Shown one piece after another: positions 18,086 to 31,861 of a stretch of DNA of 31,861 bases (its first letter is position 1; each line of letters begins with the position of its first letter). Both the position numbers and the translations under genes were made by a program. The notes beneath the pieces were generated by a model that made no database searches, was not told where the DNA came from, and saw only the letters and a program-made list of their open reading frames with translations. This stretch comes from Hysterium pulicare CBS 123377 (Eukaryota > Ascomycota > Dothideomycetes > Hysteriales > Hysteriaceae), in contig AJFK01000372.1 in the NCBI GenBank assembly GCA_000467715.1, positions 1-31,861 of the forward strand, given 5' to 3'.

Positions 18086-20060
18086 TCAGTCTTCATTTAA
18101 GACAAACCACACTTCCCACATCCTTCCCCCGCCGCTTCCTCGAAGGACTGCTCCCTTTCTAGGTGGCTTTAGATGACTCGACGACGCGGTCTTCTCCAGC
18201 AACCCACTGGGGTCGAACCCGTCCGTCGCGGAGAAGCGGGCCCAGAAGCCCCCACTCGCATCCATGTCTCCATTGATACCAACACTCCAGAGTCGAGTGC
18301 TTTCAATAGGCCAGCCCGTCTGCGGATCAACCTCGCTCTCTTCCATCTCAATTACGCCTTCTGAAATGACGGCGAGCTGTTTTGGGTCCCAGAGTCCCTC
18401 CCGAGGCGGGTTCAAAGAGAGAAGTGAAAGCGCTTCGCGGCGAGTGACAGGGCAGCGGCAGTTTAACGCGGTCGTGTAGAGAGCAGGGACTACGGAGGTC
18501 TCAAATGTGAAATTGGCGGCAGGCGGGGATTGAGGAGAAATCTTCGTCGTTGCGGGGCTAGAGCTTTGGAATGGAAGACTGCCTTTGGCAGACGGCAAAG
18601 TCGAGCGGGGAGAAGAAGGATCAATGGGTGCGGCGGTGGTAAGGTTCATAGATTGGAGAACAATCCTTGCATGGTGGTTGATAGCTTTGTATTTGTCGAG
18701 GTGCTGGTCATATCGGAGCGTGCCATTATCTGTAGCGAGAGAAACCGCGATATAAGTGCAATAGTACGATATCTTGAGTCTACTTGTAATTACTTTGTCT
18801 TCTGGAGTAAGCTTCATTTCTTTCTCAATAGAACTAAGGCGCTGAAGCCAGACACAATGGTAGTTGAGGAGGAACATTTGGTGTCGGAGATCCTGTGCTG
18901 TTATTGGATCTGCGTCAAAGTTTTTAATGGCTAGTGCCCGAGCCCACAAGATAGAGTGATTCTGAAGCTTGTGACACGAGGATTGTGCCTCCGAAAGGGT
19001 GGAAAACGGGTTCGTCTGAAGGTCCTTCAGCAAGGGAATCGACAATTTGAAAATGTGCTCGATGGACCGGCCGAATAAAAGTGCATTTGCTGTCATTCTC
19101 GTGAACATCGGGACCAGGTTCTCCTCGATTATCGTTGTTGGGCTAGAATATCTGCTCATACTTCCTGTAGTGCGTTGTGAGGAGGGCGAACGACTACTCG
19201 CGCTTCCCGAAAAGAATTGCAGAGACGGCGAGAGACTCGATGAGCCATCATATTTCATTTTCAACCATTCAGATATCAATTTCAGTCCACCTTCCCAGTG
19301 CTCGAACGCTGTGGCGTAATTGCCTCGCATGAATTCGATGCATATGAATAGCACACAGGTGACAAGTCCAATCTCCGCTGAATATGTCGGCTCGGCCATA
19401 CGCTCAACGAGGCATCTAACGGCCTTGTTATAATGAAGCAACAGAGTCCTTCCTTCATGGTCATTTACGAACCTTTGGCGAGCATGCTTCAGACTGCCAG
19501 ATTCAGTTCGATGCAGATACCCTAGAGCAATCAAGGCATGGCGCACGGCTGGCTCGGCATGTGCAATTTGAAGGCAGATGCGACACCAAAACTCGTTCTC
19601 AAACCTACTTGCTAGACCAGGCCCAGCAAAGCGATGGTAGAATTCCAGATGCTGAATATTATCGCCAAGATTCGAAAGCATTGAAATGCCAAGTCGAAGA
19701 CCGGATGCTTCGGGAAAACTGACTGTTTGAAGATGACAGTCGTTGTTTTGGGCATAGCCATCACATTTGCGACCGGTGTTCGTGCACCTGACCAGGTTAG
19801 CACGTTCTTCGGACGGCTGTAGGTGGGCGACGGCGAATACCTCACGCATTTGGGTCTCTTCTCGTCGCATTTAACGTGCCGAATCCTGCGAACAAGCTTA
19901 GCGATATGTCATTAGGATCAATACGAACAGATTTGAATTTGATAGCATATGGAAGAGCTTACTTGCATGTTATACAGCCAGTTCTCACCTTCTTCCCATA
20001 AGATCGGCGGCTCTTGCTGGGTAACGTCATGCTAGGCCCACTCAGTGGCACGATTGCCAT
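18086..20060 (-). CDS. Zn(II)2Cys6 binuclear-cluster transcription factor
   Basis: Exons 20060-19963, 19885-19841 and 19787-18086 sum to 1845 nt, 614 aa. The zinc cluster is assembled only after splicing: C29-x2-C32-x6-C39-x6-C46-x2-C49-x6-C56, with VRTGCITCKIRHVKCDEKRP and RCTNTGRKCDGYA on each half; both introns sit inside the cluster. The rest is the middle homology region of fungal-specific regulators: a helical stretch FYHRFAGPGLASRFENEFW, then AVRHALIALGYLHRTESG and a Ser-rich linker near 210-240. It acts in the nucleus as a DNA-binding regulator; the target genes are unknown. The start MAIVPLSGPS was chosen, though a second ATG ten codons on would also keep the cluster. Its neighbours (membrane receptor-like protein, F-box-like family) do not form a recognisable metabolic cluster. 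Confidence 0.92.
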
Positions 20061-20655: not shown

Positions 20656-22297
20656 CTATCGATGCACCGCACTCCTCGACACACCGGACCTCCATTTCCA
20701 GTCTGCTTGGAACTCCTGCGTCAGATCATCGCCAACTCCACCTCGCCGTGTATGGCCGGGTTCGATCGATAGCTTATGGTCGCGAAAGAAGGGTCGGCCG
20801 AATTGGTGGAAGATAAGGTCATGCCTGTCCTCGTCAGCCCCGATATATCAATCTTTAAAATGAACCACCATACCTTGTGATCGTTATTTTGTAGTTGTCT
20901 GACAGGAGTAGTCGTCCGAGGGAACAAATGATGTGGTTGATAGGCTGGGCCATCTATTTTCCTCCTGTTTCGTGATACTATCGGCTCGAGAAGGTCGTGA
21001 GCGGCCTGAAAGCCAGTGATTGTAAACTCCTGAACTCCACAAAAGTCCTTCAACATGACAAAGCCACGAAGTTTTAGCAGTACCCTTTGCGCTCCCCTAT
21101 CCCAATTACCTATGTTGACCTTCAAGGCAAGCTTTCTTAGGTGGTATGATTCTCCCAGGTAACTAATGACCCTGTTGAAAGCCCTACCTCTTGATTTAAG
21201 AGCCTTGCGACCTAATGTACGCTCGAAACTGACGCATATTGTGATAGAGCTTATGAGTTGGCGGTTATCTGCTCCGATAGTACGCAGAACCTTTATGATG
21301 GGGCGCACTTTCCGGAATAAGAACCCGTTTTCGCCATAGAATGCCTTAGCTGCCAGCTGGTGGAAATTTTTACTGACCAACAAAGGCGCAAAAAATTCCC
21401 GAGATGGTGGTAGCTGGTCATCGTGGGGAACAACAAACATGCCAAGACTGTGGTCATCTCGGTAGATCTCATCGATACACACAGATCCCTCAAGCTTCAG
21501 TACATATTTAAGTATCATTAACTTGATCTCAGCCGGAAGGGGAGTGAACAGGTCGGTAGCGGCTTGTGGAGATTTCGTCTCAAGGGCTGGCATCATATTC
21601 TGTAGAGGCCACCATCTGAATATAAACATCTCGTGGCCGACTGGTAACCTATAAGTCCTGGGTTGTCGACTACGCGGGTCCTTCGGCCGAGCAAGAAAGT
21701 CGCGGTCATACATTCTGTCATGATCGCGCAAGACAGAGCGCATCACGCCTTCTAAATCTCTGCTTAGGCCATAATGGCGAAAGTAGGGGAAAGTGTTTTG
21801 TACCCAGTGGCACGCATAGTCTTCGTCCGTCTCACGATCATTGCTGCTCAAATGAGCTAGTGCCAGGAGCTCAGTTGCGTTGAATGCGGGATATGAGCCT
21901 TTCATGAAGGAATCCAGAAGAACGAAACGGAGGAATGATTCCGGACGTGTCACTTCCTCCTCAAAACATGATGTAATTCCTCCCTGCCGAAGGCCAGGCA
22001 GCGCGCGGAGCAACCCCTCCAAAACCTCGTCGCCATGCGAATCCGCACCAGTATGGACACTGAGTTTATATTCCCGAAGAAGGCGCATGCCATTGATGAA
22101 GGCCCTAGACTCCCCGTTCGTTGATGGGATGACCCGCAGTGGTGATCCATAACTAAGGGGTGGGGGAATCTCTTCTTCCATCCTGTAAAGAAGCATGTTG
22201 GTTGATGTGGGCAGACACGGAGGAGTTTCCACTGAACTGCAGTTAGTTGCTATTGGAAATAGAAGATGCGAATGTCTTAAGGGTGTACTCACGACAT
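20656..22297 (-). CDS. F-box-like family protein, copy A (unknown function)
   Basis: Model: a 5-base first exon 22297-22293 (ATGTC), intron GTGAGT...CTGCAG, exon 22236-20869, a 44-base intron (CTGAC branch), exon 20824-20656; 1542 nt, 513 aa. Three blocks are shared with the copy at 26741: an acidic start to a helical block (FEEEVTRPESFLRFVLLDSF, about 93-112) with DEDYACHWVQNTF (about 140-152); an aromatic block LPVGHEMFIFRWWP (about 199-212); and an F-box-like helix PLPAEIKLMILKYVLKLEG (about 234-252) followed by LLVSKNFHQLAAKAFYGENG. F-box helices bind Skp1 in SCF ubiquitin ligases; whether this divergent one does is unknown. Copy A has a C-terminal extension (including HDLIFHQFGRPFFRDHKL) missing from the plus-strand copy. 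TATATAAA lies at 22375-22368. Translation could also begin at the later ATG before EEEIPPP. Confidence 0.75.
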
Positions 22298-22367
22298 GAA
22301 CACCGTAGTAGTAGAGTTGGAATTAGGTTTGGACTTTGAAGAGTTACGCGTGCATTTTCATGGGGTG

Positions 22368-22375
22368 TTTATATA
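22368..22375 (-). promoter_or_regulatory. TATA box of F-box-like copy A
   Basis: TATATAAA on the minus strand, about 70 bases before the proposed ATG at 22297, a normal distance for a fungal core promoter. Confidence 0.5.
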
Positions 22376-22379
22376 CCTC

Positions 22380-23687
22380 CAATGAAGGGCCACCCGTAAA
22401 TTCACCACGCGAGTGAATGTCGATCATCGTAGATCTCCAGACGGCCGACCAGCTTCGTTTGGCCATCAACTTGCCCGATCGAAAATGGGACGCCAGCGTC
22501 TGGATTGTACTGTCGCGGCGAATACCTGCGAAAGCGTTTTCGCCGTGCTCGTTTGTCGTAGCGTGGATCTAGCGTATGCAAGTTGCAAGTGTCAAACAGA
22601 TGCGCTTGCTGCTCGCTGTGTAGCAAGCTTGCAGGGCCGACATAGAGATTTTTGGGAGCAGCGGCCGATCCTCTATCCCTACTGGACGACAGGTAAGTCT
22701 TTCCCTCTTGGGTCCCCTGCCGAAGTCCACGAACATGATGCAGGCCTCTTCCAATCTGAAGGGAAGGGGTTCCTGCTTTGCCACGGCTAGATCTTTGTGC
22801 ATTCGTGGCTCCGTTCTCATACACTACACCCAGTCTTATCATGCTGAGTGGCTTATGGAAATGAATCAACATTTATCATCCCAATGAAAAGGCAGCGATG
22901 ACTTGCTTTTGATGGAGTAACCTAAACATGTAGTCTTTCATCGCCTGTCCGATGCATGTCCCTTCGCGGTGCCTTTGATGGATCTGCCAGCCTGCTAACA
23001 AACTTGCAGGGTCTCTCAATTTGTCATATCTTTCCATCGAAGCTTCCGTTAAATGAGTGTCGTCGCCGCATCCAGGGCTAGCGGTCGATCCTCAGAGCCA
23101 GCCCGGGGGTTGAGGTGGGTTGTATTCGCTCATCCGCGGCGGTACGCCTTGATATAATAAATCTTTGAATCCTGTTGCCACGAAGATAAAATCAAATAGT
23201 AAGGGATGGCTGTCTCCTAGAATACCGACCCAATACCGACCTTATACCGGAGATTATCCATATGTAATTCCTCCCAAAGTCAGATGCCAGGAATCTAGAT
23301 TGTGGTATGTGCAGGTATTGGCAAAGCCGCTTAAGCTTAAGAGACATAACACGTATAAAAAACGTTAGTTATCTCTCTTCATGTCTTCTCTTTAAATGTT
23401 CCGCCCTTAGGTAAAATGCTCCCGATCTCCATTGAAGTGCTGAAATTTAAGGTAGAAGTCCCCACGTGTAAGCTCGATCCGTACGTGGTAAGCTCTTTCG
23501 GATCTCTCCACCGGTATACCATGATTAAAACTCACTATTCATAGGACGTAAAGCAAGAATCTTCCCGGCGTATCTCATGTCTTTCTTCAATGCCTGAGTG
23601 ACTCAATTGCGGATCTTTCCTACGACAGATTTCAGTGATACTTTGCACCATACCGGATGTCACCTTTCCTGCTTTGTAATTTCTACG
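22380..23687. other. Spacer with unassigned overlapping frames
   Basis: Minus-strand frames at 22402-22872 (156 codons) and 22569-22820 (83 codons) overlap in different frames; segments such as RLEEACIMFVDFGRGPKRER and LDPRYDKRARRKRFRRYSP look protein-like, but no family is recognised. They could be a degraded gene. From about 22880 to 23687 stops are dense; three imperfect ATACCGACC-like units occur near 23222-23249. Confidence 0.35.
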
Positions 23688-24917
23688 TTATATCGTTGCG
23701 GTTATCTTCCCGGCTCTTGGTTCTTCTATGTATATGAGGCTCCTAATTTCGATCAATGACTTGGCCATTACAAGCCAAACGCTTCGGTGTGGCTTATTTT
23801 GATCGAAGCTCCATCTAATATTTATTATTGGACCTTCAGTATGACTCCGGAGATCTAAGGTCACCAATTTCAAGGCCTTGCGACGGTCTTTGCTTAAGCT
23901 TCGATGGATTCTCGGATGACTGGGAATCTCAACTCTGGTCGAAGATAACTCTGATATTGAACTGCCACTAACATAAGCAGAAACACCGTAGGCATTTGGC
24001 AAGATCTGGTTCGAGGAAGATTATCGCCACATGAAGAACGCTGGGGCGACGGATGCGGCAGAGGTACCAGAACATCCGGCATGTCATTTCCTGTGGCCAC
24101 CTTCGAAAAGTACTAACAGTGTCAGTAAAAGGCGCTCTTGAATGCTTAATGGCTAAGAACTCCAACTAGCCGTTCGAATCCAATAGTATGGCTGTATTTC
24201 ATCGCTTGCAGCGGTTCTTTCAATGGTTCTGATGCAGGAGCTTGCATGAGCCCAACCCGAAGCCGCAGCCCGTAGACGTGATGCTCAGCAACTCTCCTGA
24301 GGTTCCTTCGAGAATCATTAAGATGCCTCGAGACCCAGTTTATAATGTCTTCTCCTGTGCGTTGGAGTTCGTCTTGGTTACGTGGGGGTTTCTCCACGCG
24401 AGCGGGACTTGCGGATTCGTCGGGGATGCTTTGTCTCCTGAATAAGGCTGGCAAGAGCAAGGTAAGTTACAGCTCTGGTGATGTTTTCGATCCTTGCTAC
24501 TGTCATCTTTAGTCCACGTTGAGCTGCTCCAGCGCCGGGGCGATGGGCGAGGAGTACCAGATGTCCGCCTGAAGCTTCTGCCACCTAGTCTATGCCGGAG
24601 ATGTTAAAGCGTGTCCCTGTAACTTGTTTTAAAAGCTTGCTGAGTCTCTCGAACAGTTGATAACTGTCATTTCCGCTGTCTTGCTGGTAAGAACGGGGTG
24701 CAGCAGCGGCTGTGAGTTGAGCCGGTCTGCTATAACTCTGGAGTCGGAAGGGATCGCATCTGGAAGAATGAAGGGCAGGTATAATGCAGGACCGGAAAAA
24801 GTTATTTGAAATCGTTATGAGCTTCGTTGTGGTTGTTATAGCAGCTGTACTTGGCGAGTTCTGTGGGAGGTTTGGCAGCGACGCGGAGCAAGGGAGCCTC
24901 CGGTGTAGCGACAACAT
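23688..24917 (-). pseudogene. Decayed F-box-like family member, copy D
   Basis: Fragments occur in the same order as in copies A and B but in different frames. From the 5' end: an ATG frame from 24917 ending QLFERLSKLLKQVTGTRFN before a TAG; VARIENITRAVTYLALASL (compare ISRPDSLLRYALL in copy B); TGEDIINWVSRHL (about 24355-24320; compare DEDYACHWVQNTF in copy A); WPQEMTCRMFWYLC (about 24098-24057; compare LPAEIKLMILKYVL); and SKDRRKALKLVTLDLR (about 23895-23850; compare GKDNRNLLRVFGTDM). Individual matches are weak; the collinearity is the argument. At least three frame changes make an intact product impossible without undetected introns. Alternatively, some frames belong to an unrelated small gene. 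Confidence 0.45.
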
Positions 24918-26740
24918 GGAAAAAGTCTCTCATACAGCCACAACCTAACTCAATCACAACAAAAACTCCCGTTTTTCCACTCTAGGTTCATTTTGAATCA
25001 CTGCATACCCTCTATATTTTGCTATAGCCCAAGATTTGCCCTCCCATACCCTGAACATCACGCTTAAAAGTCACCAGCCGATTCACCAACCTCTCAACTA
25101 ACAACTACCGTCCCTCGTAACTACCAGCAAGCCTCCTTGTCACCCAACGCCAGCGTCCCTTAGGGGGTAAGACAACCTACAACGCAGCTATCTACAATGC
25201 TGGCTTCTTTCAATATGGCGTCAAGGGCTAGTTCTAGCTCCCATGAGAGTATCCCTCGACACTCTCCCAAGCATTACCTCTTATGTGCCCGAGCTAACAC
25301 TACAACGATAGCGAAGAAGTGTCGATGAACGGGGCTTAGGATCTCGAGTAAGATATGGCCATCAGGACAATGTGATAGGCAAGAATGCACAAAGATCCAG
25401 TAATGGTACTGTCACATTCACCAAATGGGTACATTTAGGCCTCTCGGGGTGCCTAGGTAGCCTCCCTATTGCGGTCATGACGGTAAATCCATAAACCAGA
25501 AAGATCGTTATATCACGGCTGAGTTCAGAGAAGTCTTCTCCCGTCTAGCCCACTCAAGATGTTTTCTTAAACGTTCTACTTCTGAATCGTGTTTCATCTT
25601 CGTTCGAGGAGTCGAGGACGCGTCAAGAAAACTTCCATTTTCGTTTGAGAAACCTGTCAACATTTTCTCCATTTCTTCTCGATAAAGTCAGTCCCATCTT
25701 CTGCTTCCATACTTAATGAGATATGAAACGATTTCTTCACATATTGGTTCTCTGAACGCTTGCTTATATCTAGGCCTTCGAAAGAACCCCAATTTTTTTC
25801 AAGTGTGCCAGCACAAGTTTGCAAGAGATCATCCCCTCCAACCTGGCATTATGAGAGTGACGGCCTGTATTCGGCCGCAAGGTTCAACAGACGGGTCTTG
25901 GAAAACCGAATCTCCTAGACTTTGAGCGCAGTGAAGCAACTAGCTGTATGGGTAAATTTATCGAATAAAGTTAAGAGTAAGGTTATGAACTTCTTTAGAG
26001 CAGGGAGATTGAAGTTAACATAGGTATAGAATTAAAGGACAAATAAAGCTCCGGAGTATTAACTTAAAGACAGCTTAGCATTCCTGATCCTTTCTCATGG
26101 TCTCTTTGAGCGAGGGCGAAGGGAGTTTGAATCCCCTTGCAGTACGCAAAGGACCCCGAGAAAAGAAACAGATTGCCATTTCGGGTATCAAACGTAGACC
26201 AGATTATGAAACTCATAAGGTACAAGCAGTCTAATTCACTTTCACAACCCTGTCTTCGAGAATGGCGGCGTCGGGAAGTGTCATATCCCCCCACTACAAG
26301 GTCAATTCTCCGAAACATCCTTAACAAGGGTAAAAGGCGCTCTCTGCTTATCTTCGTATCGGCTGGACAAAAACCCTGCTTGTTCTTTTAGCTAGGGATG
26401 CCCAGCGGGCACATTCCCTTTAGTCTGCAGTCATGTGGAGGAGACGGCTTCAATAAGCCCTGAAATCCAGGCCACCCCACTCTTCTAAACCACACAACAA
26501 CTCCTCCACTTGATGACCACAACGAAGCTCTTCTCACCCCAACATTGGAGGCAAAGAAAACTCGTCACATCCTGGCCGTTCCCTAGGCTTTCCGGTGCTG
26601 GTGTCCAACTTCGAAGTCGAGAACCCGTCGATTGTGAACATTGTTAACGTATGTCTGCTTCACTTCGCAATGTTGTTTCATACAGAGATTCATTAATCCT
26701 AGATACCAGAATTTACAACGACCCTTATTCAGAAGAGCAG
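24918..26740. other. Intergenic, no supported gene
   Basis: About 1.8 kb. Frames longer than 80 codons at 26064-26327 (-) and 26137-26391 (+) overlap each other and have no domain. GTTTGAATCCCC near 26125 resembles a tRNA T-loop, but no matching acceptor or anticodon stem was found. The right end is the promoter and leader of copy B: GTATGTCTGC at 26649 and TTTCATACAG at about 26676-26685 could bound a leader intron. Confidence 0.45.
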
Positions 26741-28087
26741 ATGGAGAACAGCGTCGGCGCAGCGCCATCCAACCTGCCGCTCTATTCCGGGCTCTTGAAA
26801 TCTCAACCTTCCCAGCCTCCCAGCATCACCAACCCCGATGCTCCTGCGGCTGGACATCGCTTGAAAGTTCTGATGGATTTCCAGCGGCGGAACAATGAGG
26901 TCTGGAATGACGACCGACATCTCCGCCGACTGCTCGGCGCGCTTCGAGGCAACGTTATCTCTGGCATTCACGGTGACAAAAGAACATCCGACTTCGAGAT
27001 AGAGATAAGCAGGCCGGACTCTTTACTACGCTATGCGTTGCTAAGACACTTCCGTCAGAAAGGCCGTCCACCGTTTTACGACGAGGAGTTTGTCGCACTT
27101 GCACTTCTGGCAATGCCAAATCGGGAAGCAGACGCGACAGCAATCTGCCAGTGGATTATCCACAATTTCAAATTCTTCTCAAAAGAAGTGGAGGACGACC
27201 ATCTCGCAGGCCGCTACTTTGCCCCTACAGACACTCAGAGAATTCAGGGTATTATTCGACGATTCCTTCAACAAGAGAACGAGAAGTTTGAATCCAATTT
27301 CCATTCGCCGCTGCGAACTTGGGGCAATTTTTCCATTCCCCGTCAACTGCTTACTGATTGGTACAAACTACCTCCTGGTCAAGAAATGGTCATCCTATCG
27401 CGTTGGCTCCCTCAACCTCACCTTCACTCGGCACAGCTCCCGCCATTGTACAATCTTAGCCAATGTTGGCAATCTCTCCCCGATGAACTCAAATTGAAAG
27501 TTTTAAAGATGCTATTAGTCTTCGACCAGCCGGGGGGGATTCAGATACTTGATAACGGCCGAGGAAAGCTCACCATGCAAGTCCGTCCTCCTGACGCGGT
27601 GCACACAACGGCCGAGAAATGGACACTTCCTTCCTCGAAAGCACTCTTATCACTACTTGCAGTGAACTCGTGGTTCAAGACAGAGGGATCAAAGATTTTC
27701 TACGGGGCAAATGGCTTTGTGTGCTTGAATTTTACCATCCACGGAAAACGAGCCAATGTGGCCGAAAAGTTCCTCAGCAATATCGGCAAGGACAACCGCA
27801 ACCTCCTCAGGGTATTTGGGACAGATATGGTGTTCAGCCGTACGCATAGATTGACGCACCAACTGTTCGAGGATGTTGCGCGCCTCCTAGAGAACGATTG
27901 TACAGCACTGGAGGAGATATGTTTTGATGTATATGAGGGGACTCTACCCCAGCGGTCAAGGGCCGATATAACCAAGATGCCAGGGTTTCGCAGTCTGTCC
28001 AACATGCGTGGACTGAACAAGGTTGACTTTAAGAGCTGTCCGCGGGCTCAGGCAGCGTTAGAGCGTCTTATGAAACTGCCGAAATAA
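26741..28087 (+). CDS. F-box-like family protein, copy B (unknown function)
   Basis: Uninterrupted frame; 448 aa from MENSVGAAPSNL, or 478 aa if the ATG at 26651 is used. I prefer 26741 because the upstream ATG lies within a consensus donor (GTATGT) with an acceptor 40 bases on, and the related minus-strand genes start M-E/D-rich. Shared blocks: HLRRLLGALRGNV, FEIEISRPDSLLRYALLRHF, ATAICQWIIHNF, the aromatic block LPPGQEMVILSRWLP, an F-box-like SLPDELKLKVLKMLL helix and AVNSWFKTEGSKIFYGANG, then GKDNRNLLRVFG. The protein stops about where copy A begins its C-terminal extension. No signal peptide or membrane segment; probably cytosolic or nuclear. An adaptor role through Skp1 is only a possibility drawn from the F-box-like helix. 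It is the best-preserved member of the cluster. Confidence 0.85.
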   Translation: MENSVGAAPSNLPLYSGLLKSQPSQPPSITNPDAPAAGHRLKVLMDFQRRNNEVWNDDRHLRRLLGALRGNVISGIHGDKRTSDFEIEISRPDSLLRYALLRHFRQKGRPPFYDEEFVALALLAMPNREADATAICQWIIHNFKFFSKEVEDDHLAGRYFAPTDTQRIQGIIRRFLQQENEKFESNFHSPLRTWGNFSIPRQLLTDWYKLPPGQEMVILSRWLPQPHLHSAQLPPLYNLSQCWQSLPDELKLKVLKMLLVFDQPGGIQILDNGRGKLTMQVRPPDAVHTTAEKWTLPSSKALLSLLAVNSWFKTEGSKIFYGANGFVCLNFTIHGKRANVAEKFLSNIGKDNRNLLRVFGTDMVFSRTHRLTHQLFEDVARLLENDCTALEEICFDVYEGTLPQRSRADITKMPGFRSLSNMRGLNKVDFKSCPRAQAALERLMKLPK

Positions 28088-28849
28088 GGTACGCCACTTC
28101 TACTGTATACACAAAGCGACAGTTTCAAGACTAATCGAACAAGTGAACGAGTCAGCATGAACATATCAGCTTCTTCCAACCTTCTCCAGCTTATGTGCTA
28201 CGGCCTCTCTGCTATATTCTCGGCCGAAGCCTCTCTATTTTAGCATCTCTATGGCGTCTTACCGAAGGAGATTTCTCTACGGTATCTTCGCCACGGTAAC
28301 TTCAACTTATTCTTCAACTGGTTCATAGTTATTGCTTCTGACCTATAGCCTCGAGTCTTTTATATTGCACCATATACCATATACCCACATGGGGAAAGCG
28401 AATATTCCGATGCGCCCCAGCTGCGTGTCAAGAAGGCCGCTTAGGATGCTGGACTGCTGGTCAATGTCACGATACTGATTCACTGGTTCTCATCTCAATG
28501 AGAGCTGTTTCACCGAGCGTTGCATTTATGTTTATGATGTCAGATATACCATCTGTTGCACGATCTCAAAACTTCACCAATGAGCCATCTTAGATTTGCA
28601 TTAAACCGAGCGCTGCATTCTGAATCAGGTTTTATCGAAAGTTTGTAGCATTATCCCCTTACTTATCCTGCTTGCTGTTTTTGTTTTCGGCGTGCGTTAT
28701 ATCTAACACTCTTTGCCAAAGATATGCTTTGACATCGGTATAGCTAATTGATACAACATCAAACCCTCCCAAATATTGTTGTCCCCCGAAATTGCTACTA
28801 TGAAGGTTTGGTTGCTGGTTGGCGTTCAGAGTTGAAGTTCTATTAAGCA
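28088..28849. other. Intergenic between copies B and C
   Basis: About 760 bases between copies B and C (convergent). No gene seen. The minus frame 28659-28853 (starting MMLNRTSTLNANQQ) has no family resemblance and does not continue the F-box-like reading of copy C in frame. Confidence 0.45.
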
Positions 28850-29486
28850 TCATTCTCGGTACCTATTGAGTATCATATATGCCTGAAAGTGTATCGGCGA
28901 ATGTGCGCTGATGTTAGAGCCGATTTTTTGCGCATTGATACGGATGCCTCCAGCTGTGGGAAATTTCAGCACATATCGTAGGATCATGAGTATAACCTCT
29001 GGAGGCATATCAGCCAAACCCAGGCGAGATCCAGCAAGTTTTGCTGTCTTGGCTATACTATTTGGCCCGAAGAACTTGAAGCAAGAGGAGAATATGGGGA
29101 ACTCTCCGCCAGATGGTAGGCTGAAGGTATCGTTTTGGCTTCTCCGATTGGGTATTATATCGTTAGGATTTAGGATCGCCGGAGGAAAGTCGCAGTCGAA
29201 ATGGTGAGCTTGATCCCACAGCAAGAAATGAATTCTTCCCTGAATTCTCCTTGAGTCCGTCACCGAATAGAAGTTTGAAGCTAGTTGGTCTTCCAGGAGT
29301 CGGTTCTGGTGAAAAGGGATATTTCTTAGAATCCATTTGCAAATATCGTCCTCGTAAAGCAGTGTTTAGGGGAGAGCCTTCAATAGAGAGCTCCTCCTCA
29401 AACCGAGATTGGGGCTGGTCCTGGCTCATTTTGGCCAAGTTGTTGACGAACTCGCGGGTCCGGACAAGCTGTCTGTCGTCGTCCAT
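28850..29486 (-). pseudogene. Truncated, frameshifted F-box-like member, copy C
   Basis: Begins MDDDRQLVRTREFVNNL at 29486 with a block RFEEELSIEGSPLNTALRG that aligns with FEEEVTRPESFLRFVLLDS of copy A. The middle helical region is largely missing: the reading passes straight to PTSFKLLFGD. About 29240-29200 the coding signal moves by one frame into GRIHFLLWDQAHHFDCDFPP (aromatic block) and DMPPEVILMILRYVLKF (F-box-like helix), then ends at a TGA (28850-28852) without the VSK-FH...FYGENG part. The possible donor and acceptor around the frame change would leave an intron of only 26 bases, so a one-base indel is more likely. I treat it as a broken paralogue, although a shortened expressed protein is not excluded. 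Confidence 0.65.
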
Positions 29487-29926: not shown

Positions 29927-30822
29927 TCAGATGTCTTCCTGTTCATCCTCCTCAGCAGGACTACCATCGAACTCCCCAGCGAAGTCACTATCAAACTGCG
30001 CCAATTCCTGCTGCTGCAGCGCTGGCGACTGTATGTAGTGTACCGCGATAAGCACTCTGGCCAAACCCTTCAGCTGTTTACCAACGGAAACAGCATCATC
30101 AAGCATCTGCTCGATGTTCTGCTTCTGATTTTCCAGGTTTCTGATTTGGTTGTGCTGCTCAGCGATGATAGTGTTGGCGCACTGGAAGTTTGTAGTGGCC
30201 TCGTTCTCTTTCTTGCGCGACTCGTCGAGTTGCTTGGAGATAAATTTAACTGCGCTGTTTACTTGGCGTAAGTCCTTCCGAAGCTGCCTGTTCTGGGCCT
30301 CGAGGCTTTGCCCGCGTGTATCGGCAGTCTTGAGTATCTAGAGGGAGTTAGTAGATTCGTAACAGAAGTGAAAGTCTTGATTAGACCGGCGATAAGTACC
30401 TTTTCGCTCCATTTTTCTCCGATGGATTTCATCTTCCGGATCTTGGGGGTCTTTTCGGGCGACTCATCCGTTGTAATCTTGAGCGGAGTGATACTGGAAC
30501 CACTGAGTGAAGCACCTCGTTTGTTCTCCGTGACGTTGCTGTTGGTTTTACGATTGTCGGTACGGATCAGATTCTGGCTCGCCGTAACATCGCTGTTGGT
30601 CTTTCCACTGTCGTTGGGCTTCAGATTCTCGTCCTGCTTAACCTCGTTGTCCTCCTCTCGGGGCCTCTCCTCTTGTTCACTATCATCGCGTGAAGGGCGT
30701 TTGCTCGCATCGATTCTTGTACCGCTCTGCTCTTGAGTTTCCTCCGTCTGCACCTGGGGTGGATCTGGGTTGGTAATCGCCAACAAGTCACATCGAGCTT
30801 TTTTTCTAAAGAGATTTCTCAT
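29927..30822 (-). CDS. Coiled-coil protein of unknown function
   Basis: Exons 30822-30400 and 30337-29927 (GTACTT donor, CTCTAG acceptor, 62-base intron) give 834 nt, 277 aa. Residues 1-140 are charged and disordered-looking, with a near-repeat DSGKTNSDVTASQNL / DNRKTNSNVTENK and a basic segment TPKIRKMKSIGEKWSEK just before the intron. Residues 141-240 form a long heptad coiled coil (QSLEAQNRQLRKDLRQVNS, then NQIRNLENQKQNIEQMLDD), followed by an acidic C-terminus EEDEQEDI. The first ATG starts MRNLFRKKARC; the longer upstream reading has no ATG. No membrane segment and no known domain. It is adjacent to the F-box-like cluster but not related to it in sequence. Function unassigned; the gene model is good. 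Confidence 0.7.
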
Positions 30823-31338
30823 GATTAGCGAGCTTGAACAATTAAAACACTGGACACCTGGCGGGTGCGGGAGAGGTGTGAGTGAGTATGAGATTGTTGG
30901 TGTTCGGCTGTCTTGCTGGCAATATTGATTTTTTTTAGGTTGGATGGTGAAGCAATTCACCGTAGAACAGATCACGTCATCGGGGCTTACATCATTTCCC
31001 CTAACTTTTTCACATCCAGATCATGCAGATCATCGAAACTCCAGACCTTATTCCCCATGTTGCGACTGTTGGGTTCCCGTCTTGTTGAAACCGGCGCCCC
31101 AGGATATGATTAATCGGAGAGTAGCGAAGATGTAAAGCTGGGTTCGTGAACGGTTCCTAGAAAAGTGAACATCACTTTGGGGATGGAACGTTTCCACTTT
31201 TGTGCTTACATAATATGATACGACATGCGGACCAATCCATCGTCAATCTAGCATTTGAGAGTCGAGCAAGGCTTATTCCAATTTCCTGATCTCTGTAAAC
31301 TGCACTTTATGTCCTCTTCCTATGCAGCCTCTCCTCCT
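30823..31338. other. Intergenic, promoter side of the coiled-coil gene
   Basis: About 515 bases with short frames only (66 codons at 30913-31113). No repeat or RNA gene recognised. Confidence 0.4.
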
Positions 31339-31861
31339 ATGTCCCTCAACTCATTTTCTGCGTCACCTCTTTCGGTCAATACCCACCTACACAGCCTCCA
31401 TGATAAAAGCAACAGGACTACGATTTCTCAAGACGAGTATCGTGTACCACTCATAGCCCGCCTTTCTCTAAGAGGAAAAGCTCATCTCTCTAACAGTTCT
31501 ACCCATCAGCAGAGAAGTCCGCGGCCGCATCTTCGGTCACGCGCCCAGGGGTATGCTCATCATCCCGCTTGTCAAGCTCGTCAACGTAAACCATACGTTT
31601 CATTCGACGTAATAAGTACCGGTCACGTTGGAGGCCAGACCATGATCAATATCTACCTCATTGAAATCGTTGACGACATACTTGGAGGCTATCACATTGT
31701 GGAGCGGCAACGACGAAGAAGACAGAAGAAGAGGAGGATGAAGAAGAGGAAGAGGAAGATGAGGAAGATGAGAACGAGGAAGAAGAAGAGGAGGACAAGG
31801 AGGACAAGGAGGACAAGGAGGAGAAGGGGGGGAAGGAGAAGGAGGAGGAGGAGGAGGAGGA
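31339..31861 (+). CDS. Open frame running off the right edge (partial, uncertain)
   Basis: From ATG 31339 (MSLNSFSASPLSVN) the frame stays open for 174 codons to the window end, through TGHVGGQTMINIYLIEIVDD and into a Lys/Arg-rich repeat encoded by the GA-rich tract. An alternative + frame at about 31514-31612 reads EVRGRIFGHAPRGMLIIP, which resembles the start of an F-box/2EXR-like helix, and the GA tract in the third frame gives Glu/Asp/Lys. Which frame is used, and where introns lie, cannot be decided without the sequence to the right. Confidence 0.3.
   Translation, partial: MSLNSFSASPLSVNTHLHSLHDKSNRTTISQDEYRVPLIARLSLRGKAHLSNSSTHQQRSPRPHLRSRAQGYAHHPACQARQRKPYVSFDVISTGHVGGQTMINIYLIEIVDDILGGYHIVERQRRRRQKKRRMKKRKRKMRKMRTRKKKRRTRRTRRTRRRRGGRRRRRRRRR
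31705..31861. repeat. GA-rich triplet repeat at the right edge
   Basis: About 157 bases almost free of pyrimidines on the + strand, built from GAA/GAG/GAT/GGA-type triplets, with three tandem GACAAGGAG units around 31792-31818 and a terminal (GGA)n run that continues beyond the window. Such tracts usually code for Glu/Lys-rich low-complexity stretches in fungal nuclear proteins, or are non-coding microsatellites. Confidence 0.85.

Follow-up and report, generated by a model that had tools for sequence, protein, structure and literature searches.

Forkhead-like and F-box-like halves combined in a small duplicated gene cluster of Hysterium pulicare

We describe here a small cluster of related genes in the fungus Hysterium pulicare CBS 123377 (assembly GCA_000467715.1, 37.2 Mb in 596 contigs), made up of two copies with long open frames (A and B) and a broken relative (C). 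The window, that is, the whole stretch of DNA analysed, is the complete contig AJFK01000372.1 (C291; 31,861 bases). In A and B, a forkhead-like N-terminal half is followed by an F-box-like C-terminal half. This two-part architecture is well supported, while the mechanism that it may serve is one that we infer. Among described proteins, those of the DUF7730 (PF24864) and 2EXR (PF20150) families share with A and B an LPxEhK/R helix, a later LLxVxxxFxxxAxKxFYGxNxF block and then an IGxDNRxLI segment. A and B differ from them in lying below the Pfam cut-off and in carrying the N-terminal forkhead-like domain, of which there was no sign in the frames of the DUF7730/2EXR loci that we fetched. With the forkheads (forkhead box, FOX; PF00250) the copies have in common the sequence pattern of helices 1 and 2, the order of the elements and, tentatively, the predicted fold; in contrast, they score below the family cut-off, they have lost the base-reading Asn and His, the loop before helix 3 (the recognition helix) is longer in B and C, that of B also exceeding that of A, and the domain is fused to an F-box-like module. 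SKP2, COI1 and TIR1, which combine an F-box with leucine-rich repeats (LRR), resemble A and B in having an F-box-like LPxE helix and then an alpha/beta tail. In A and B, however, this helix lies in the middle of the protein and an insertion precedes the FYGxNG segment, the tail is putatively LRR at most and no curated F-box model matches.

Regarding the literature, a fungal F-box protein is known that acts in the nucleus and has a transcription factor as its target (PMC11750091). Neither a fusion of forkhead and F-box nor the name DUF7730 was found in the open-access literature that we searched, which included PMC9744329, PMC11423578 and PMC10158824 and is far from all that is in print. An F-box protein that degrades a forkhead protein is reportedly the subject of one paper. 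Judging by sequence, both halves of A and B appear to be of known kinds, and their combination is one that we have not found described.

Copies A, B and C

Copy A lies in a frame that is open for 533 amino acids (aa) from stop to stop (20724-22322, minus strand), and copy B in one of 479 aa (26648-28087, plus strand). In A, a 49-nt intron (20825-20873) is predicted from the GT..branch point..AG pattern only. Gene A of the original prediction is confirmed, and on our best model of it (Table 1) the span first given, 20656-22297, is a little too wide; the span given for B was exact, with an alternative in-frame ATG possible upstream, at 26651. The two proteins are 26% identical over 395 aa (E 2e-25), and the alignment runs through all of the blocks originally named, in the same order, pairing EVTRPESFLR with EISRPDSLLR, LPVGHEM with LPPGQEM, LPAEIKL with LPDELKL and FYGENG with FYGANG (A and B, respectively). 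A and B are real paralogues.

Copy C was recovered by tblastn with B as two pieces in different frames (29492-29355 and 29383-28937, minus strand; joint E 4e-12), and about 35 residues are gone between them, after the first block. It had been described as carrying the same blocks in broken form. It is indeed broken, but nothing is left of it downstream of the LPxE helix, neither the FYGxNG block nor what follows. A profile hidden Markov model (HMM) of the three copies ranked them, by construction, as the top three of the 1004 open reading frames (ORFs) of at least 20 aa in the window (E 3e-77 or better); the next-best ORF gave E 0.25, and the reversed window nothing below E 2.3. Because identities among A, B and C are only about 26-34%, varying with the stretch compared, the duplications look old. 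What had been called an inversion amounts to the orientation of the copies (-,+,-), and the duplicated family at one place has three members, not four.

Copy D, the proposed fourth member, was not found. Using A and B as tblastn queries, the best other stretches of the window gave E 0.038 and 0.047. No further copy appeared among the 1004 ORFs searched with the HMM, and when 387 ORFs of at least 45 aa were compared with both half-profiles by hhalign, those outside the copies scored at most 23.1 and 21.5. The minus-strand ORFs at 23691-24929, the likeliest place for D, showed no match to A or B above noise. Several ORFs lie there, possibly exons of one gene, with a 54-nt intron pattern at 24113-24166, and three pieces compared with Pfam gave nothing at E up to 0.1.

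Beyond A and B, the homologues found are copy C and, for the C-terminal half, proteins of the DUF7730 type. In six-frame searches of the same genome, the B protein matched only itself, A and C, and the A protein matched itself, B and, weakly (E 0.0075), a locus on contig C281 (L014). In single searches with a limit of E 10, the N-terminal halves of B, A and C gave three, two and two matches including self, all on C291; as far as single-protein searches reach, this half is confined to the cluster within its own genome. None of the 69 pattern stretches in a collection of other genome contigs, nor of the 48 in a collection of viral contigs, was confirmed as a relative; both collections are ill suited to tracing a fungal family. 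The B sequence alone had no match in PDB up to E 1, and NCBIfam returned only an irrelevant flavodoxin model (E 0.16).

Table 1. Coordinates of the cluster and of the adjoining regulator gene in the window
Feature	Position	Strand	Basis
Copy A, gene model (ATG 22181, stop ending 20819; 437 aa)	20819..22181	-	open frame; paralogy with B
Copy A, forkhead-like winged helix (PAF..LLALAHLS..WV..FPYFR..LEGVMRSVL..DF..YRLPVGHEM)	21630..21902	-	hhalign; PDB profile matches; Foldseek
Copy A, DUF7730/LPxELR F-box-like module and following alpha/beta region	20874..21560	-	HMM E 7e-9; hhalign 95.6%
Copy B, single-exon gene (448 aa)	26741..28087	+	open frame; alignment start common to A
Copy B, forkhead-like winged helix (RPPFYDEEFVALALL..ICQWI..FKFF..IQGIIRRFLQ..F..YKLPPGQEM)	27056..27385	+	Pfam; hhalign
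Copy B, DUF7730/LPxELR F-box-like module and following alpha/beta region	27473..28030	+	HMM E 9e-4; hhalign 49.9%
Copy C, broken relative in two frames	28853..29486	-	tblastn with B; own-genome searches
Fungal_trans_2 regulator gene, adjoining copy A	18086-19870	-	Pfam E 2e-7

The forkhead-like N-terminal half

The N-terminal blocks first noticed are real, and what had been missed is that they go with a region resembling a degenerate forkhead winged helix: the E-x-S/T-R-P block sits just upstream of the forkhead-like domain and the LPxGxEM block at its end. At profile level, the N-terminal half of A and B is related to forkheads. In Pfam, PF00250 was the sole family listed for this half of B (E 0.016, 15.7 bits; the cut-off of 27 bits is not reached), and A and C were not listed for it. 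The PF00250 list for the whole genome holds five true forkheads and the place of B, the only sub-threshold one listed. A profile of the N-terminal half searched against PDB gave 16 sequences, all of them forkheads, including FOXP4, FOXP3 and FOXP1. By hhalign against the forkheads of the same genome, A and B scored 31.6 and 31.5, as high as none of 566 decoy ORFs, and the reverse of the search with the own-genome forkhead HMM was in line with forkhead similarity. The structure prediction suggested for this region returned a low-confidence model of the A domain, for which Foldseek placed forkheads first (50 of 50 among the rows listed).

Aligned with WQNSIRHNL of locus L067, the recognition helix reads LEGVMRSVL in A, IQGIIRRFL in B and IQGRIHFLL in C. 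The core hydrophobic pattern is kept, and so is the Arg in A and B; the Asn and His are gone, with a His one position earlier in C. In forkhead-DNA complexes this Asn and His read bases, and because they are lost, sequence-specific DNA binding of the forkhead type by A and B is unlikely.

The fifth forkhead of the genome (L071; C57:141298-141531, 51 bits) has also lost the N..RH core of its recognition helix (WETGISAVLSQNKDF). The helix reads WETGISAVL there, so that Asn, Arg and His are all missing, and the PAF...WV..FP pattern of this locus is, by eye, the closest to that of copy A. Unlike the copies, it belongs to a 679-aa frame.

The F-box-like C-terminal half

An HMM built from 20 DUF7730/2EXR proteins of the same genome scored A at 31.7 bits and B at 15.0 bits, with 1000 shuffled sequences reaching 6.2 bits at best; the piece of C gave 3.1 bits, within the shuffle range. 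The 20 loci were hand-chosen for matches near the LPxE end from 53 (L014-L066) that had been retrieved by searching with A or with the two families. L014, a DUF7730 match itself (25.5 bits, or 30 with its neighbours), was the key to the identity of this half, as its segments MSLPAELRVLVYEFFL...LLRVSKLVYSEAAKIFYGMNEFRF...WLRTIGPNHYQHLRHVTL parallel copy A. Since it had first been found with copy A, we left it out of a repeat test. With the remaining 19 loci, hhalign gave 96.8% for A and B together and 34.8% for C (values for A and B singly are in Table 1). The joint score was 67.0 without L014 and 78.7 with it, and 300 shuffles stayed at or below 19.8. The homology spans LPxE..FYxxN..IGxxNR. 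These HMM and hhalign scores place the C-terminal half, as a divergent relative, with the fungal DUF7730/LPxELR F-box-like family, at a distance where the Pfam DUF7730 model gives 11.9 bits for A and nothing for B and C (cut-off, 27 bits).

The genome contains 92 DUF7730 and 22 2EXR matching stretches, counted exon by exon, so the genes are fewer than the stretches. It is frequent for several DUF7730 matches to share a contig (C438, C51, C134, C254 and C167), and some have internal stops. Introns account for part of this pattern, but the family may commonly form local clusters with decaying members.

The tie to true F-boxes lies in the first helix only (15-20 columns). Compared by hhalign with eight F-boxes of the same genome, the DUF7730 profile reached 71%, and the copies, over 15-17 columns, 85% (C alone), 25% (A and B together), 8% (A) and 5% (B), a weak alignment; the score of A and B together was 24.6, and 200 shuffles gave at most 17.4. 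Of the 159 candidates for the curated F-box model (PF00646) in this genome, 150 were scored; the 59 matches listed include none on C291, and the Pfam scan of the window at E up to 1 contained no F-box. The F-box-like character first claimed for the LPxExKL/FYGxNG half thus holds at the level of the DUF7730/LPxELR family, below any curated F-box cut-off. Because neither an F-box nor a DUF7730 cut-off is passed, ubiquitin targeting is proposed here conditionally. A full-length AlphaFold2 (AF2) model of B had a mean predicted local distance difference test (pLDDT) of 42; none of its Foldseek matches reached E 0.001, and the best 50 of 622 rows contain no F-box chain. Structural matches to F-box plus LRR proteins were weak.

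Setting and possible roles of the locus

The genes around the cluster are ordinary fungal ones, with Pfam matches to an NOG2-type GTPase N-terminal domain, a threonine dehydratase and a fungal rhodopsin-domain protein; a neighbour with a purine/cytosine permease-like start scores below the Pfam cut-off. As regards the accessory region originally suggested, an AT-rich compartment or one shaped by repeat-induced point mutation (RIP) was considered and rejected: RIP indices showed no increase, though between the copies GC content drops to 0.43-0.47. A probable coiled-coil protein lies at 29930-31017 (minus strand), one frame having sub-threshold Pfam matches only and the other none. The contig ends in a purine-rich low-complexity run (31700-31861), which is possibly the reason for the break at 31861.

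The anatomy of A and B (LPxE helix, winged helix and tail) suggests an adaptor of the SCF (Skp1-cullin-F-box) type with a forkhead-derived recognition module. The N-terminal half would be a forkhead-derived winged helix that keeps the fold-determining residues and has lost the base-reading Asn and His, and the C-terminal half would combine an F-box-like module of the fungal LPxELR/DUF7730 kind with a subsequent alpha/beta tail, possibly LRR-like. Through the LPxE helix the protein would dock on the Skp1 of an SCF ubiquitin ligase, and the winged helix and the tail would bind a client, plausibly a nuclear or chromatin protein. Skp1 binding and the client-binding role are deduced from sequence likeness, and an LRR nature of the tail, a nuclear location and expression of A and B are presumed. 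Taken as a whole, and including an old local duplication in which copy C is decaying, we give this explanation an even chance of being right.

If, instead, the forkhead-derived domain still bound DNA, perhaps non-specifically like a linker histone, A and B would be transcription or chromatin factors using their LPxELR half for protein contact, with no ubiquitin ligase involved. This seems unlikely to us, given the replacement of Asn and His in the recognition helix of all three copies and the kinship of the C-terminal half with an F-box-like family. Slightly less likely again, A and B could be DUF7730 proteins that are divergent but otherwise ordinary, with a helical extension of unrelated origin at the N-terminus that resembles forkheads through a generic helix-turn-helix likeness. 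Several results speak for such a likeness and weigh against a forkhead origin: the Pfam score is sub-threshold; the own-genome forkhead HMM, run on 6989 ORFs, puts B at 8.6 bits, below two unrelated frames, and leaves A unlisted; C alone gives no signal by hhalign against the own-genome forkheads (19.1); the similarity falls mostly in helices 1 and 2; and the structure model is of low confidence. However, a generic likeness fits poorly with the specificity of the matches, since forkheads made up all the PDB sequences and all the Foldseek rows listed, no decoy scored as high, and the PF00250 list contained the true forkheads and this locus.

One could also argue that the locus is a relict whose copies are all decaying and none functional. 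C is broken, the likeness of A and B is only about 30%, searches of the genome found no other N-terminal half, and GC content at third codon positions (GC3) is lower in A (0.51) and B (0.56) than in the two conserved neighbours tested (0.64 and 0.60). We nevertheless hold this to be improbable: the frames of A (436 codons) and B (448 codons) are free of stops, their blocks are still conserved as protein sequence although the copies have diverged deeply, GC3 is much the same (0.52) in the regulator gene next door, and no RIP index was raised.

Returning to the SCF-type adaptor, a bolder version, which is tentative and somewhat doubtful, would make A and B a new adaptor type, in which a forkhead that no longer reads DNA is reused for client or chromatin recognition and fused to an F-box-like/LRR-like body, the family diversifying, like recognition receptors, through the local birth and decay of copies. 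If true, a transcription-factor domain would here have become the recognition part of a ligase, directly linking recognition of the transcription-factor type to protein degradation. Proteins of the DUF7730 type are numerous in this genome, and a repurposed forkhead module would offer a testable idea of what they bind.
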